64,000 bases of DNA from Haloarcula mannanilytica. Its GTDB lineage: Archaea; Halobacteriota; Halobacteria; Halobacteriales; Haloarculaceae. Positions 57,888 through 64,000 of this stretch are shown here, piece by piece. How positions within the stretch are numbered: position 1 is the first letter of the stretch; each line of letters opens with the position of its first letter. The position numbers and the translations under genes are program-made. The notes below the pieces were generated by a model. The model saw only the letters and a list, made by a program, of their open reading frames with translations, was not told where the DNA came from and ran no database searches. The stretch covers positions 558,001 to 622,000 of the forward strand of contig NZ_BIXZ01000002.1 in the NCBI RefSeq assembly GCF_005406125.1, read 5' to 3'.

Positions 57888-58613
57888 ATGATTGAGCAAA
57901 CTAAAACGGGGATCGAGGGCCTCGACGGCATCTTGAACGGCGGCATTGTAAAGAACTCGACGACACTGGTAAGTGGCAACCCCGGAGCCGGGAAATCGAT
58001 TCTCTGTCTCCAGTATATCTACAACGGCGTCGAAAAGTACGACGAGAAAGGGATCTATCTCTCCTTTGAGGAAGACGAATCGGACCTCCGGGAAGCCGCC
58101 GAATCTATCGGCTTTGAGAACTGGCAAGAACACGTCGATAACGGCGATATCAAGGTGTACGACAAGCAGGTCCTCCTGCGCGAGAACGACTTTACTTCCT
58201 CGCTTGATATCCTGCTTGAAGAACTCGAAGACGGCGATTACGACCGGCTGGTGCTTGACTCGCTTGCCATGTTCGAACTGTTCTTCGAAAACGAGAAGGA
58301 GAAACGGACGTACCTCCTGAAGTTCACCGACATTCTCAGTGACAGTGGCCTCACGACGCTGATGACCAACGAGCAAGGGGCCGTCTTCCCGGACACCGAG
58401 ATCGGACTGGAGAACTACCTGACCGACGGCAACATCTACCTCATCCAGACGCCGACCGACACTGGCGTCAACCGGTACGTCTGGGTTGCAAAGATGCGAA
58501 AACAGAACATCGAGACGGACATCTATCCGATGGAGATCAGCCACGGCGGTATCGATGTCCACGAGAACGCCAGTGCCTTTTCGATGATGAGCGAGGAAGA
58601 ATCACCAATTTGA
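57888..58613 (+). CDS. Single-domain KaiC/RAD55-like ATPase in the motility locus
   Basis: The 241-residue protein has TGIEGLDGILNGGI, Walker A SGNPGAGKSILCLQY (GNPGAGKS at 30-37), the acidic FEEDESDLREAAES and Walker B DRLVLDSLAMFEL. It is a one-domain RecA/KaiC-like ATPase; it is separate from the archaellum ArlH in this window, which is not seen. KaiC-like proteins (Cir) in haloarchaea are diurnally expressed. Placement between cheW and the regulator pair suggests a role in taxis or motility control; this is an inference. A ctttttaac sequence near 57831 may be the TATA element. Confidence 0.75.
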   Translation: MIEQTKTGIEGLDGILNGGIVKNSTTLVSGNPGAGKSILCLQYIYNGVEKYDEKGIYLSFEEDESDLREAAESIGFENWQEHVDNGDIKVYDKQVLLRENDFTSSLDILLEELEDGDYDRLVLDSLAMFELFFENEKEKRTYLLKFTDILSDSGLTTLMTNEQGAVFPDTEIGLENYLTDGNIYLIQTPTDTGVNRYVWVAKMRKQNIETDIYPMEISHGGIDVHENASAFSMMSEEESPI

Positions 58614-58735
58614 GGACAGGAACTGGCCATTATTACTCCGTAGAACGGCGGGTACAGACGCATAGAACGCCGTTCCTACACGACTCCCCCGGAACGCGTG
58701 TTTGTCTCTCATGCACTCGATATCACAGGCGATAG

Positions 58736-58743
58736 CTTTATTA
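58736..58743 (+). promoter_or_regulatory. TATA box for the second winged-helix gene
   Basis: ctttatta lies 27-34 bases before the ATG at 58770, the same spacing as for the paralogue at 3383, and supports a leaderless mRNA. Confidence 0.5.
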
Positions 58744-58769
58744 TCGACTGAATTTATGATTTGATAACG

Positions 58770-59105
58770 ATGGATTCAGGGGAGATTCTTCAGACGCTTG
58801 GCAATAAATACAGTGCCGAGATTCTCGATGCGACGGACGAACCGGTCTCCGCACAGGAACTCAGCGACGAACTCGGGATCCCCATTGCGACGTGTTATCG
58901 ACGGATCGACGAACTGACAGAACATAACCTCCTGGAACTCCACGACAACATCCTCTCCGACGACCGCCGCCGTATCAAAGTGTACCGGCGAAACGTCGAC
59001 GAAGTCCGGGTCGATTTCGAGGACGAACTGACGGTCCACATCGAGGAACGGTCGGAAGTGACCAACAAGCTCGACGAGGCGTGGCGGACCCTTTCCGAGC
59101 GGTAG
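58770..59105 (+). CDS. Winged-helix regulator paired with a small membrane protein, copy 2
   Basis: I use the ATG at 58770 (MDSGEILQTLGNKYSAEILD); an upstream TTG would add three residues. The 111-residue protein lines up with the 3383 gene: GEILQTLGNKY against EEILDTIGDKH, SAQELSDELGIPIATCYRRI against SAKELAEECDLSLPTVYRRV, and a matching C-terminal acidic strand. The recognition helix differs at several positions, so targets may differ. The next gene, 83 bases on, is the three-helix partner. It lies just before the archaellin gene and may regulate it. Confidence 0.77.
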   Translation: MDSGEILQTLGNKYSAEILDATDEPVSAQELSDELGIPIATCYRRIDELTEHNLLELHDNILSDDRRRIKVYRRNVDEVRVDFEDELTVHIEERSEVTNKLDEAWRTLSER

Positions 59106-59188
59106 AGCGGCTCAAACCAGCGTTATCACGAGAGATATTTTCGAGCGTGGATTTAATACCGGGTTCGCTGTAGCCATGCATAGTACTG

Positions 59189-59464
59189 ATGATAGAACTT
59201 CTCTACGCCATTTCGACGCTGGTGTTCGTCGTGGCGGGGCTGACAATGGTCGGGATGGCCATGCGGGCGTATGTCCAAACGTCCCGGCAGGCGATGCTCC
59301 ACCTCTCGGTCGGGTTCTCGCTGGCGATTGCGGGGGCGGCCGCCACGATGATTAGTGCGTTTATCAACGACTTCGAGGGCGTGCGGTCGCTTCTGTTGGT
59401 CAACAGCGGCCTCACGACGTTCGGCTATCTGTTCGTGATGTACAGTCTTGTCACGTACGAGTGA
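59189..59464 (+). CDS. Small three-helix membrane protein (DUF7521-like), copy 2
   Basis: The 91-residue protein has helices at about 5-25, 36-58 and 67-88. It has the same topology and gene order as the 3762-4061 protein; the sequences share only limited identity. No charged residues of a transporter type are seen. Together with the winged-helix gene it forms the second copy of the pair. Function unknown. Confidence 0.7.
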   Translation: MIELLYAISTLVFVVAGLTMVGMAMRAYVQTSRQAMLHLSVGFSLAIAGAAATMISAFINDFEGVRSLLLVNSGLTTFGYLFVMYSLVTYE

Positions 59465-59781: not shown

Positions 59782-60387
59782 ATGCTAACGGAACTTACGA
59801 ACGACGACGACCGCGGGCAGGTCGGTATCGGCACCCTCATCGTGTTCATCGCGATGGTGCTGGTGGCGGCAATCGCTGCGGGCGTCCTGATCAACACGGC
59901 TGGCTTCCTCCAGAGCAGTGCGGAGGAAACCGGACAACAGAGCAGTGACCAAGTGACGAATCGGCTTGAAGTGGTTAACCAGGTTGGTACCGTAACGGGC
60001 GGTAATGTCGATACGGTCGATATAACTGTCAAAAAGGCACCCGGTGCTGGAAATATCGACCTGAGTACGACGATCCTCCAGTTTGTCCACTCAAGCGGCT
60101 CCAGCGACTTGACGTACGCAGAGACGGACAGTGGCAACGGTGAAGACTTCACTGTTACCAGCGTCCAGGATCAGGGTGGAAATTCCATCCAGGACCCGAA
60201 CCCGGTTCTGAACGACCCTGCTGACCGAGCCAAGATCATCCTCGATACGGACGCCATCGTCGGTAACGGTGGATTAGCCGAAGGTGACACGGCTACCATC
60301 CAGATGAACACCCAGTCCGGCGGTACGACCCAGGTTCGACTGGTCGTTCCGGAGACCCTGTCTGGTAACTCCGCAGTCAGCCTCTAA
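59782..60387 (+). CDS. arlB: Archaellin (archaellum filament protein)
   Basis: The start at 59782 gives 201 residues. The N-terminus [12 protein letters not shown] is followed by the hydrophobic helix [20 protein letters not shown], the class III signal pattern cut after Gly12 by the prepilin-type peptidase. The mature protein has a serine/threonine-, asparagine- and glycine-rich outer domain with acidic residues, several N-x-S/T sites and the C-terminal [15 protein letters not shown]. It assembles into the archaellum. Only one archaellin gene lies in this window. The gene has a leader region (see hairpin) and a T-rich terminator. Confidence 0.9.
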
Positions 60388-60477: not shown

Positions 60478-61047
60478 ATGGCTCGGCGGTCAGACGAACC
60501 GAATCCGGAAGAGGGCAAGGTACTCTCGCCCGAAGAGCTCGATATCGCCGACGACGAGCACGTCACCGAGATCGACGAGGGTCGCTACGTCGTCTCGTCA
60601 GATGTCCGCACCGACGACTCCTACGGGAACCAGATCCAGTCGGATTCGGCGTCTGAACCGGCCCCCGAACCCGAACCGGAGCCGTCGACTCCCGAGTTCT
60701 CCGATGCGAACGTCCACGAGTGGCTCGCAGAACAGATGGCCGACTCGAACGCCAGATACGGCTTCGACGTGACCGCGAAGTTCGACGGCGATGTCGACCA
60801 GCAACAGCTCACCTCGAACGACATCGTCACCGTCTTCGAGAGCTTCATGCTCTGGTACGGTCGCCAGATGGACGGTTCCACACCGGTCGAAGAAGTGCTT
60901 GGGATCCTCCTCTCGGAATCGAACGTCCCGGTTCGCTATCCGCCAGCAGTTATCAAACAGCTCGTTCGGTCGACACAGCTGACGCCCGACGATTCTATCG
61001 CTGACCTCTTACAGGCCGTCGAGGACGCTGACGGGGCCGAGTTCTGA
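60478..61047 (+). CDS. Acidic protein of unknown function downstream of archaellin
   Basis: The 189-residue protein starts MARRSDEPNPEEGKVLSPEE. Residues 1-75 are acidic and disordered, with a proline-glutamate repeat (APEPEPEPEP). The rest (about 80-189) is a helical domain with HEWLAEQMADSNARYGFDVT, a FESFMLWYGRQMDGS motif and VEEVLGILLSESN. It resembles a haloarchaeal DUF (possibly DUF7500) associated with motility clusters; the label is tentative. No enzyme motif is seen. It is cytoplasmic and may be a regulator or chaperone for archaellum genes; inferred only by place. Confidence 0.62.
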   Translation: MARRSDEPNPEEGKVLSPEELDIADDEHVTEIDEGRYVVSSDVRTDDSYGNQIQSDSASEPAPEPEPEPSTPEFSDANVHEWLAEQMADSNARYGFDVTAKFDGDVDQQQLTSNDIVTVFESFMLWYGRQMDGSTPVEEVLGILLSESNVPVRYPPAVIKQLVRSTQLTPDDSIADLLQAVEDADGAEF

Positions 61048-61057
61048 ACGACGAGGG

Positions 61058-61066
61058 ATTTAAATT
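61058..61066 (+). promoter_or_regulatory. TATA-like element for the secreted-protein gene
   Basis: atttaaatt lies 28-36 bases before the ATG at 61094. Confidence 0.35.
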
Positions 61067-61093
61067 CGGGCACAGCAGTGTGTAGGGTAGATC

Positions 61094-61576
61094 ATGGTCC
61101 CGCGCCATCCGCCGACAGTTGTTGCCGTGGTTATCGTGGTAACACTGCTCGTGACGGGACCACTCCTCGGCGTCGACGCCGTCGAGACACAGCCGACGAT
61201 TATCGGCGACGGGACGGCGTCGGTCAGCTCTGTAGACGTAGCCTCCTCGGAGATCCGGATCACGGACGGTCGGTTCGGTGCGGACGCGGCGTACCTCCGG
61301 GTCCCCGATGCCAGTGTGACCGTCGATGCCGTCTCAGGACGGCCGCGGCTACTGTATCAAGTCGATGTTCCTGCGCTCGATGTCTCCCTCGAAGACGAAC
61401 AGGTATTGTCTGCAGGACAGACAGGGACGTACCGCCTTGCGCCCGGCGATAAGGGGCTTGCGCTGTCATTACCGGAGCAGGACACGTACCACGGGAGCGT
61501 TCGGATTCGGGTCCAGAGCTTCGAAACTGACGAGACGATAGTCACGGAAAACGTGACGGTTCAGGTGGAACGATGA
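61094..61576 (+). CDS. Secreted or membrane-anchored protein of unknown function
   Basis: The 160-residue protein has one N-terminal hydrophobic helix (about 8-27) that could be a signal peptide or anchor. The remainder is rich in beta strands and Ser/Thr/Val, with SVSSVDVASSEIRITDG, FETDETIVTENVTVQVER at the end and one N-x-T site. It overlaps the next gene by four bases (ATGA), so the two are translationally coupled. No family is recognised; the coupling suggests that it works with the membrane protein. Confidence 0.6.
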   Translation: MVPRHPPTVVAVVIVVTLLVTGPLLGVDAVETQPTIIGDGTASVSSVDVASSEIRITDGRFGADAAYLRVPDASVTVDAVSGRPRLLYQVDVPALDVSLEDEQVLSAGQTGTYRLAPGDKGLALSLPEQDTYHGSVRIRVQSFETDETIVTENVTVQVER

Positions 61577-63588
61577 GCCGAACCGTGAGACGCTTTGGAG
61601 ACCGCTGCCGACGGTTCGGGAAGTCCGTCTTCGGCGACCGCTACGGCTACGTTCTCTGGCTCGGCCTGCTCGTGACGTTCGGACTCTACTGGCGCGTTGG
61701 CATCTTCATCACCGACACGTACACCACGGCCAACACGCTCGTCGCGGTCTCGAACGGACAGCTCCACATCACGGAGACGCCCTACACGCTGACACTTGGC
61801 TCGCAACCGGGCCTGCATGAGTCAGGCAACAGACTCTACGGGCGCAACTACGGGCAGGTCCTTTTCGCCGCTCCGCTCGTCTGGGCGTTGCAAGCCCTGT
61901 CGGTGTTCGTTACGCCGCGGTTACTGGTCCTCGGACTCTGGTCGGGCACCGCTCTCGCTTTGGTGTCCCAACTCGGCGTACTCGGACAGCGACACACCGA
62001 CATTGCTGAGCGGACGATCCTGTGGGTCGGCAGCGCTCTCGTTGGGACCCTGTTTCTGATCGGCGTCGCTACGGCGACAGCGCTCCCGGACACGCCGCTC
62101 CCGATAGCCGCGTTCCAGATATCGACGATGCTTGCGGCGGCGACGACCGGTCTCGTCCTCTATCGCCTCGTCGGACTCTGGCACGACCGCTCGGTCGCAC
62201 TGGCGGCCGGTGTCGCGGTCGGTATCGGCTCGTCTATCGGGTTCTGGGCCTCGCTCCCCAAACGGCACGTCTTGGTGGGACTGCTAATACTGACAACGGT
62301 GTACCTGTTCGCTCGAAGCCGCGTTGCGTATGCTAACTCCGGATTCCGACTCGGACTCGGCTTTCGCGCCGGTGCGTATCTGACAGCCGGACTGGTCACC
62401 TGGACACACGCCTTCGAGGGGTTCTTTCTGGTGACGACGCTGGCTCTGGTTGACCTCATCACCGCGAGACGGAACTCCCTCCTGCATCTCGCTGTCGTCG
62501 GCCTCGCACTCTTCATCGGCTCGCTCCCGATGCTCGTGACGAACTACCTGATATCCGGCAACCCCGTTAAAACGCCGCGGTTGCTTCCCTCTGTCGGCGG
62601 TGCGAACGTCGAGTTCACACCAGACCTTGGCGGTGATGGGGGAACAACCGACGGTAGTGGTTCGGGCGGAACCGACGGCTCCGGGTCTACTGCTGGGGGT
62701 GAAGGATCTGGCGGAAGTGATAGCGGAACCAGCGGATCTGGTGGTGAAGCCAGTGACACTGGAACGCCAATTGTGACGCCCCTTCTCGGCCTGCTTGACC
62801 AAATGAAGGGTACTGTAGCACCTGCGATGGAATTTGTCACCAGGGCAGTTAGTCGTGGCATCAATGTATTGGCGACTCCGGACAGGATGTCTCAGATCTT
62901 CCTCAGGAGCGGCACCGCTTCGGGTATCAACTATGCCCCGAATAGCTACGAGGCAATCGAACTGACGATGCTCGAGTCCGTCCCGCTGTTCGGCGCGGTA
63001 GCGGCGCTCCCCGTCGTTCTGGTCCGAGTAGTCCACCAGCGGATACGGCAGTGGAGCGTCCTCCCCTCGCGGTACTCGCCTCGAACGCAGACCGATATGC
63101 TTGTTACAGCCCTCGCAGCCGTCTTCACGCTCATCTATCTGAGCCGCCTGCCATTGCACACACAGCTCACTGTCCGGTATATACTGCCGACGGTTCCGCT
63201 CATTATGTACGGCGTCGTTCGGATCCCGGCAGTACACGAGGCTGCCCGGGATGCAAAGCGATGGTTAGCCGGTGGGTACGTTACAAGTACCGTCGGCGGT
63301 CTCATCCTCGGGTTGGGTGTCGTCGCCGGACTCGACCTGGCGCTCGGGGAGGCAGTGCAGTTCCACGCGCTCGTCAATCTGGCCGGTGCAGCGATCTGTG
63401 GTGGTGCCGTACTGGGTCGCACCCTGGCTCCCGATCACGTTCCGTCCAGCGCCGTCGCGGTCGGCCTGGCGCTTCCCGCGGGGCTGACGACAGCGTACCT
63501 CCTGCTCTCGGGGCTCGTGTACTTCCAGTACGGCCCTTTCGCGCTCGATTTCGTCCGTGTTCTCGCCACGCATCTCCCGGCGGTGTAA
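61573..63588 (+). CDS. Polytopic membrane protein, glycosyltransferase-like (GT-C type?)
   Basis: The 671-residue protein has about a dozen hydrophobic helices. The first long loop (about 45-95, HITETPYTLTLGSQPGLHES) and the layout with two more large loops recall the GT-C/PMT type of lipid-dependent glycosyltransferases, but I do not see a clear DD/ED catalytic motif, so this is tentative. A glycine/serine-rich insert occupies residues 353-396. It is coupled to the secreted-protein gene and located between archaellin and cheY; modification of archaellin or its export environment is only a guess. Confidence 0.55.
   Translation: MSRTVRRFGDRCRRFGKSVFGDRYGYVLWLGLLVTFGLYWRVGIFITDTYTTANTLVAVSNGQLHITETPYTLTLGSQPGLHESGNRLYGRNYGQVLFAAPLVWALQALSVFVTPRLLVLGLWSGTALALVSQLGVLGQRHTDIAERTILWVGSALVGTLFLIGVATATALPDTPLPIAAFQISTMLAAATTGLVLYRLVGLWHDRSVALAAGVAVGIGSSIGFWASLPKRHVLVGLLILTTVYLFARSRVAYANSGFRLGLGFRAGAYLTAGLVTWTHAFEGFFLVTTLALVDLITARRNSLLHLAVVGLALFIGSLPMLVTNYLISGNPVKTPRLLPSVGGANVEFTPDLGGDGGTTDGSGSGGTDGSGSTAGGEGSGGSDSGTSGSGGEASDTGTPIVTPLLGLLDQMKGTVAPAMEFVTRAVSRGINVLATPDRMSQIFLRSGTASGINYAPNSYEAIELTMLESVPLFGAVAALPVVLVRVVHQRIRQWSVLPSRYSPRTQTDMLVTALAAVFTLIYLSRLPLHTQLTVRYILPTVPLIMYGVVRIPAVHEAARDAKRWLAGGYVTSTVGGLILGLGVVAGLDLALGEAVQFHALVNLAGAAICGGAVLGRTLAPDHVPSSAVAVGLALPAGLTTAYLLLSGLVYFQYGPFALDFVRVLATHLPAV
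62629..62760 (+). repeat. Gly/Ser/Thr low-complexity insert within the membrane protein gene
   Basis: Residues 353-396 are almost only Gly, Ser, Thr, Asp and Glu, with repeats of the type GSGGTDGSGS. The codons are less GC-rich at third positions than those around (ggt, tct, gga), indicating recent expansion or import. Confidence 0.6.
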
Positions 63589-63663: not shown

Positions 63664-64000
63664 ATGCCAGACGTACTGATCGCCGACGATTCAGAGTTTA
63701 TGCGTAACCTCCTCCGTGAGATTCTCGAAGAAGACCACGAGATCGTCGGGGAGGTCGAAAACGGCGTCGAAGCAGTCGAAGTGTTCAAAGAGGAAGGGCC
63801 GGACCTGGTTATGATGGACATCGTGATGCCCATCCGCGACGGGATCGAGGCCACAGACGAGATCAAATCGTCCAACCCCGACGCCAACGTTATCATGTGT
63901 ACGAGCGTCGGCCAGGAAGAGAAGATGAAAGAGGCGGTGAAGGCGGGGGCTGACGGGTACATCACCAAGCCGTTCCAGAAACCCAGCGTGATGGAGGCTA
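63664..64000 (+). CDS. cheY: Chemotaxis response regulator CheY, C-terminus beyond window
   Basis: At least 112 residues of a single receiver domain are present, with Asp8-Asp9 (IADDSEFM), the phosphorylated Asp52 (LVMMDIVMP), Thr80 (IMCTSVGQ) and Lys102 (YITKPF). It lacks any output domain so far. Phospho-CheY binds CheF to switch the archaellum motor. The gene runs past the right edge; the rest of the archaellum/che genes may follow there. Confidence 0.9.
   Translation, partial: MPDVLIADDSEFMRNLLREILEEDHEIVGEVENGVEAVEVFKEEGPDLVMMDIVMPIRDGIEATDEIKSSNPDANVIMCTSVGQEEKMKEAVKAGADGYITKPFQKPSVMEA

Follow-up and report, generated by a model that had tools for sequence, protein, structure and literature searches.

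A gene pair linked to type IV filament subunits in haloarchaea, including a membrane protein of predicted GT-C fold, is a candidate module for their glycosylation

In Pseudomonas aeruginosa, TfpW and TfpO modify the product of the pilin gene that lies upstream of them, and TfpW is described as a GT-C enzyme, according to the passages that deal with them in two papers (PMC11841053, PMC5836110). In systems of the CsbB/YfhO type, as one of these sources outlines them, a GT2 donor synthase and a GT-C transferase that modify teichoic acids are encoded near each other (PMC5836110). For archaea, parts of the literature report that Haloferax depends on N-glycans of the archaellum for having archaella, and Halobacterium for keeping its filaments well separated (PMC4187195, PMC11239922), and that archaellins seldom lack N-glycosylation sites, the exception named being both archaellins of Haloarcula marismortui (PMC4187195); FlaB of that species is mentioned as possibly having a different glycosylation pattern (PMC6528647). 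The pathway of archaeal O-glycosylation is called unknown or elusive in statements from a review of 2014 (PMC4245038) and a glycoproteomic study of 2021 (PMC8241124). Haloarcula archaellins are almost without N-glycan sites, despite the need for N-glycans in Haloferax and Halobacterium. Here we describe two genes, B and C, that lie with a third gene, A, between the archaellin gene and cheY of Haloarcula mannanilytica, in a stretch of 64,000 nucleotides of contig NZ_BIXZ01000002.1 (the window). We propose, with a probability of roughly 60%, that B-C is a module devoted to glycosylating type IV filament subunits and takes the place of N-glycosylation by AglB, the bond probably being to Ser or Thr.

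Among 194 genomes of haloarchaea of the order, C homologs were found in 41 at E ≤ 0.001, or in 39 once weak partial hits had been removed; four partial hits (G134, G030, G181:142761 and G071:306011) were left aside. We fetched 66 C loci, of which 64 had a called C (L092 and L100 did not), together with a second set of 77 named loci from another collection, which overlaps the first in species; in this set, L132 and L160 had no called C, L173 lay at an edge, and another gene was picked as C in L175. Gene calls and the patterns for pilins and archaellins were made for this analysis, and some genes were missed. C was immediately preceded by a B-like open reading frame (ORF) at 55 of the 64 loci, with an exact four-base overlap in 50. 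Adjacency to a subunit gene, the mark of a pilin-accessory cassette, was found at 40 of the 64 loci (16 archaellin, 24 pilin), where a subunit gene of the same strand preceded C by no more than four genes, compared with 8 of 559 control genes in 40 regions drawn at random from these genomes; the named loci gave 40 of 74 (15 archaellin, 25 pilin). The C family is more often found beside type IV pilins than beside archaellins, and the window's own genome carries a second B-C pair behind a PilA-type pilin. Furthermore, C was present in 28 of 140 genomes positive for ArlH (score over the ArlH cut-off) and in 11 of 54 ArlH-negative genomes (Fisher p = 1.0). B-C is therefore a filament-subunit module, for archaellin or pilin, with a firm linkage to subunit genes, and not a marker of motility; an initial annotation of the window had made an archaellum association depend on conservation of the A-B-C block in motile haloarchaea, and for B-C this conservation does not hold.

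The features of the locus, in window coordinates, are as follows.

59782..60387, plus strand: archaellin gene (ATG at 59782, stop at 60387), the presumed substrate; PF01917 E 4e-35
60478..61047, plus strand: gene A, a DUF7500 protein of 189 amino acids, acidic and cytosolic-looking; PF24332 222.7 bits
61059..61064, plus strand: TTTAAA, a TATA-like box recognized from sequence only, ~30 nucleotides 5' of the start of B
61094..61576, plus strand: gene B, 160 amino acids, with a hydrophobic N-terminal helix (residues 8-20) followed by an Ig-like beta-sandwich
61573..63588, plus strand: gene C, 671 amino acids, polytopic, with 15 hydrophobic segments and a predicted GT-C fold
61573..61576, plus strand: ATGA overlap of the B stop and C start codons, as read in the window
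ATG at 63664, downstream of C: cheY; NF041367 CheY_Halo 208 bits

The three ORFs and the shared ATGA agree with what had been annotated initially, the overlap having been checked in the sequence. The order archaellin-DUF7500-B-C-cheY is repeated in relatives and so is not a matter of chance. In Natrinema and Natronomonas the order differs (archaellin-B-C, with DUF7500 after C) and the subunit linkage is kept.

The AlphaFold model of C (predicted local distance difference test [pLDDT] 88.3, predicted template modeling score [pTM] 0.89, 69 alignment rows) makes it nearly certain that the protein has a GT-C fold. Foldseek gave ArnT as its top matches (E 6.5e-4 and 3.1e-3), and VIA-align superimposed 380 residues of C on ArnT (5ezm) at Z 19.6, with a root mean square deviation of 5.3 and 12% identity; yeast oligosaccharyltransferase (OST; Z 18.7), ALG12 (18.6), AglB (3waj; 17.7), Pmt4 (16.8) and PglB (15.8) followed. 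Rows 1 to 42 of the VIA-align results were GT-C enzymes or OST complexes (Z 8.2 to 19.6), and the protein in row 43 was unrelated (Z 7.9). Invariant in alignments of 37 and 69 sequences were D48, K230-R231-H232, N324, R535 and others, the conserved residues including a PKRH motif at 229-232. D48 is in the first outer loop, immediately behind transmembrane helix 1, so that C has the acidic first-extracytoplasmic-loop residue of GT-C enzymes; from this position, it is the presumed equivalent of the catalytic loop Asp of ArnT and OST. It is the one acidic residue identified for a DXD-like motif, no second one having been picked out. The model contains a disordered Gly/Ser-rich linker at ~345-398 and no soluble domain. 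The initial annotation had likened C to lipid-dependent glycosyltransferases in overall layout only; the likeness holds and the restriction does not, as the predicted fold itself is GT-C, and its guess at a surface or glycosylation system has held up in the same way.

Curated sequence families point weakly, under their cut-offs, to a glycosyltransferase. PMT_2 (GT39-type protein mannosyltransferase) matched 12 of 37 C members (best 3.2e-5, or 24.6 bits, under the PF13231 cut-off of 26.1), and NF047440 (LA_3751/LA_3752 putative glycosyltransferase) matched 22 of 37 (best 7.9e-10), the best of the members scored singly reaching 28.2 bits against a cut-off of 200. Profile-to-sequence comparison (hhalign) of C with the Agl23-like, PMT_2 and AglB proteins of its own genome gave nothing significant, and searching PDB sequences with the C alignment yielded weak matches only, mostly in the Gly/Ser linker region. 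Assignment of C to AglB/STT3 was rejected, WWD being found in 0 of 69 members and a soluble domain being absent from the model.

The model of B (pLDDT 83.2, pTM 0.70) has a hydrophobic helix followed by a beta-sandwich, in line with the initial description of a secreted or anchored beta-rich protein, and B presumably faces the outside as a partner of C. Its fold resembles numerous beta-sandwich domains, most closely those of GH2 (Z 9.1) and, weakly, fimbrial chaperones among others; because the match is so generic, we draw no function from it. B stayed under all Pfam and NCBIfam cut-offs (best Pfam DUF7513, E 0.056; no NCBIfam match), and a relationship to CS1 fimbrial subunit A (PDB search, E 0.052) was rejected as too weak.

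Other known GT-C transferases have a soluble domain. We envisage that a sugar on a lipid phosphate of the polyprenyl(dolichol)-phosphate type would be made in the cytosol and then flipped, and that C would transfer it, on the outside of the membrane, to the subunit before or during assembly, the globular domain of the pilin or archaellin being exposed outside prior to assembly. B, translationally coupled to C, would bind the acceptor in trans, serving as the domain that C lacks. The sugar would be bound to Ser/Thr, an O-linkage that we offer as a guess. With N-glycosylation of filaments by AglB replaced in lineages with C, N-X-S/T sequons would decay. Among the 24 pilin-class loci, a GtrA-type protein was encoded in 15, a GT2 enzyme in 16 and DUF2298 in 19, compared with 0 of 40 control regions; these neighbors may fit donor supply and flipping, yet they may also reflect old synteny.

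We counted sequons (N-X-S/T, X not P) in mature proteins, with shuffled sequences as the expectation. The mature archaellin of the window, with 189 amino acids and 12 Asn, has none. Archaellins in arl (archaellum) clusters with B-C (n = 27, from 17 genomes) averaged 0.22 sequons, 22 having none (shuffled, 2.14), whereas those without arl-linked C (n = 52, from 27 genomes) averaged 4.15, with 7 having none (shuffled, 2.56; Mann-Whitney p 9e-11, without correction for descent). Within genera, the means with and without C were 0.5 and 5.25 in g5 and 0 and 5.67 in g7. In aligned orthologous archaellins (a G184 copy and a G193 copy are 60% identical), the same Asn residues were lost, mostly to Asp or Glu, as in VNMT to VEIT or VDIT and VNLND to VDLDG. 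G119, which has C, still has 2 sequons and is perhaps in a transitional state. The 20 linked archaellins of the named loci averaged 0.65, 12 having none. Archaellin Ser content was 11.7% in genomes with C and 8.8% in the others.

Pilins gave a contrast in the same direction in three genera. Those linked to C averaged 0.44 sequons (n = 45; shuffled, 1.16), those unlinked in genomes with C also 0.44 (n = 16; shuffled, 1.00), and those in genomes without C 3.13 (n = 31; shuffled, 1.69); the 47 linked pilins of the named loci averaged 0.87. As unlinked pilins are equally low, the switch appears to be genome-wide for filaments and not confined to the neighboring gene. S-layer-type proteins keep their sequons, with 1.81 per 100 amino acids in genomes with C (n = 12) versus 2.02 (n = 8), 3 of 23 loci having been excluded for lack of the signal motif, and the window's genome encodes AglB, an STT3-family protein with WWDYG. 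Among other arl-cluster proteins the contrast was smaller, counts with and without C being 2.05 versus 3.39 for ArlF-like and 0.90 versus 1.71 for ArlG-like proteins. Replacement of N-glycosylation on filaments is likely, if thinly replicated.

Several observations weigh against this proposal. The cytosolic CheC-like protein also differs (0.45 versus 1.48, p 0.001), a sign that background drift makes up part of the sequon contrast, and the low pilin counts in genomes with C need no linkage to C. The C-linked pilins of G079 carry 3, 3, 3 and 1 sequons, further pilin exceptions being Halosimplex, Haloglomus and Salinibaculum, and the arl-linked archaellins of Salinibaculum and of one metagenome-assembled genome have 3. 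The GtrA-GT2 neighborhood was counted in C-bearing genomes and may be plain synteny. On a tree built from CheC, DUF7500 and ArlH, 22 of 24 genomes with C were sequon-poor and 17 of 21 without C sequon-rich, leaving 2 with C that were not poor and 4 without C that were. This tree held only four phylogenetically independent pairs, which on average went the same way in 2.8 cases and the opposite way in 0.1 (sign test median p 0.25); with so few pairs, the link loses its significance once descent is corrected for, although its sign is consistent. An ancestor with both systems, followed by loss of one or the other, would be a plausible history.

The sequon difference could be a lineage effect unrelated to C, which may glycosylate subunits alongside AglB or do something minor. 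The scarcity of independent contrasts, the four sequon-poor genomes without C and the CheC difference all suit this explanation, which we consider unlikely but credible; site-by-site loss inside two genera, the agreement of pilins across three genera and the lack of loss in S-layer-type proteins argue against it.

Two other kinds of sequon-low archaellin were seen. Two Haloarcula genomes without archaellum-linked B-C (L219 and L220, from G138 and G173) have a much longer archaellin (mature length, 442-462 amino acids) that is also sequon-free. Archaellins with 0-1 sequon occur at L235, L245, L253 and L254 (G129, G013, G116 and G101), in genomes in which no C homolog was found, and may use yet another system.

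A different acceptor for C must also be weighed. In a tree of 122 C proteins, made by a quick method and with some long branches, the archaellum-linked C genes group in a single clade (Shimodaira-Hasegawa-like approximate likelihood ratio test [SH-aLRT] 98) that includes seven Halorientalis-type copies located elsewhere in their genomes. Near these relocated copies are genes for a PF02397 sugar transferase, a GT4 glycosyltransferase, a UDP-sugar dehydrogenase, a nucleotidyl transferase and a sulfatase, not all of them at each locus. Three of these genomes were checked: the arl clusters of G114 and G079 retain a called B, and G187 has an unassigned gene call there. Such glycan clusters would suit C as a working GT-C enzyme acting on another surface glycoconjugate (S-layer, exopolysaccharide or lipid), its proximity to filament genes reflecting co-regulation of surface genes; the 22 of 64 C loci without a recognized subunit or arl context and the low sequon counts of unlinked pilins point the same way. 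We nevertheless think it rather unlikely, as C is linked to two subunit families in differing gene orders and sequons are lost in filament subunits and kept in S-layer-type proteins. We count the relocated copies in favor of a filament module, since the archaellins of these three genomes still have 0 sequons (3/3) and B has stayed in the arl cluster in two of the three.

Some Haloarcula carry a further type of C (L045, L049, L151 and L178) that is located away from pilins and archaellins, forms its own clade and mostly lacks B, which was called in L178 only. At many loci of the Haloarcula family, a DUF7344 protein, possibly a regulator, is encoded between two pilin genes upstream of pilin-type B-C (L037, 5486-6091).

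Genes next to pilins need not encode glycosylating enzymes: the P. aeruginosa accessory genes, as presented in part of one paper, include the non-glycosylating TfpY, which aids pilus assembly (PMC11841053). C might likewise be a membrane chaperone or assembly platform that has a GT-C fold, with B as its adaptor, and the weak match of the B beta-sandwich to fimbrial chaperones, among many others, would accord with that. Against this, the conserved Asp of the loop, together with PKRH and Arg, resembles an active site, sequon loss would be left unexplained and 112 of the 140 ArlH-positive genomes do without C, making this role improbable.

Gene A stands apart. It passes the PF24332 cut-off of 27 bits over residues 11-181, so that the acidic protein with a helical domain reported initially is a DUF7500 protein, a family on which we found no paper in the open-access texts searched. 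DUF7500 matched in 140 of 140 ArlH-positive and 9 of 54 ArlH-negative genomes; A is a separate archaellum-linked protein, with nothing in these data tying it to B-C in function. The initial annotation had proposed restriction to motile genomes as a check on its archaellum-associated block, and across the 194 genomes A tracks ArlH and C is independent of it: the association applies to A and to a single clade of C, not to the C family, and the supposed block falls into two unrelated units. One archaellum-specific surface system of three genes is very improbable, for although the DUF7500-B-C-cheY order is conserved in Haloarcula and relatives and the archaellum-linked C genes are one clade, C shares only 28 of the ArlH-positive genomes with DUF7500, occurs in 11 ArlH-negative ones and recurs with B beside pilins without DUF7500.

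The TTTAAA box may be a promoter of the B-C module's own; a sigma-70 promoter scan was set aside as not meaningful for archaea. Downstream of cheY are a cheC-like gene, a gene for a 173-amino-acid protein, arlCDE, two short arl genes, arlH and arlI, some of the arl and che names being presumed. Directly before the archaellin gene (57912-59464) are genes for a KaiC-family ATPase, a small helix-turn-helix protein (58761-59105) and a DUF7521 membrane protein (59189-59464), the latter two of which occur at the same place in many arl clusters, with or without B-C.

If the proposal is true, B-C is a second archaeal protein-glycosylation route, and two protein-glycosylation systems split their clients within one cell. 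We hold only tentatively, at less than even odds, that, among archaeal enzyme systems for O-glycosylation of type IV filaments, it would be the first to be identified, having replaced AglB on archaellins and pilins in several haloarchaeal lineages, with S-layer N-glycosylation continuing in the same cell. Our open-access literature searches found no paper on the pair, which is a concrete, deletable target in a tractable genus with close relatives that have and lack it.

Compared with known systems, ArnT (PDB 5ezm/5f15) is the best fold match to C, from which it differs by the low identity and by a soluble domain that the C model lacks; ArnT modifies lipid A and carries its soluble domain at the C terminus. 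AglB, STT3, PglB and PMT share the GT-C fold with C, and PMT_2 matches it weakly, but C has no WWD and stays under the PMT_2 cut-off. The CsbB/YfhO type resembles the pilin-type B-C loci, with GT2 and GtrA nearby, although in archaea this arrangement may reflect synteny and nothing more. The sequon gap of H. marismortui, left unexplained in the passages of PMC4187195 that describe it, is here tied to B-C. TfpW and TfpO of P. aeruginosa type IV pili are like B-C in that a glycosyltransferase gene lies near the subunit gene, downstream of the pilin. Set against TfpW, which we compared by description only, B-C is archaeal, stands beside archaellins as well as pilins, mostly has B as a second gene and is accompanied by the loss of N-sequons.

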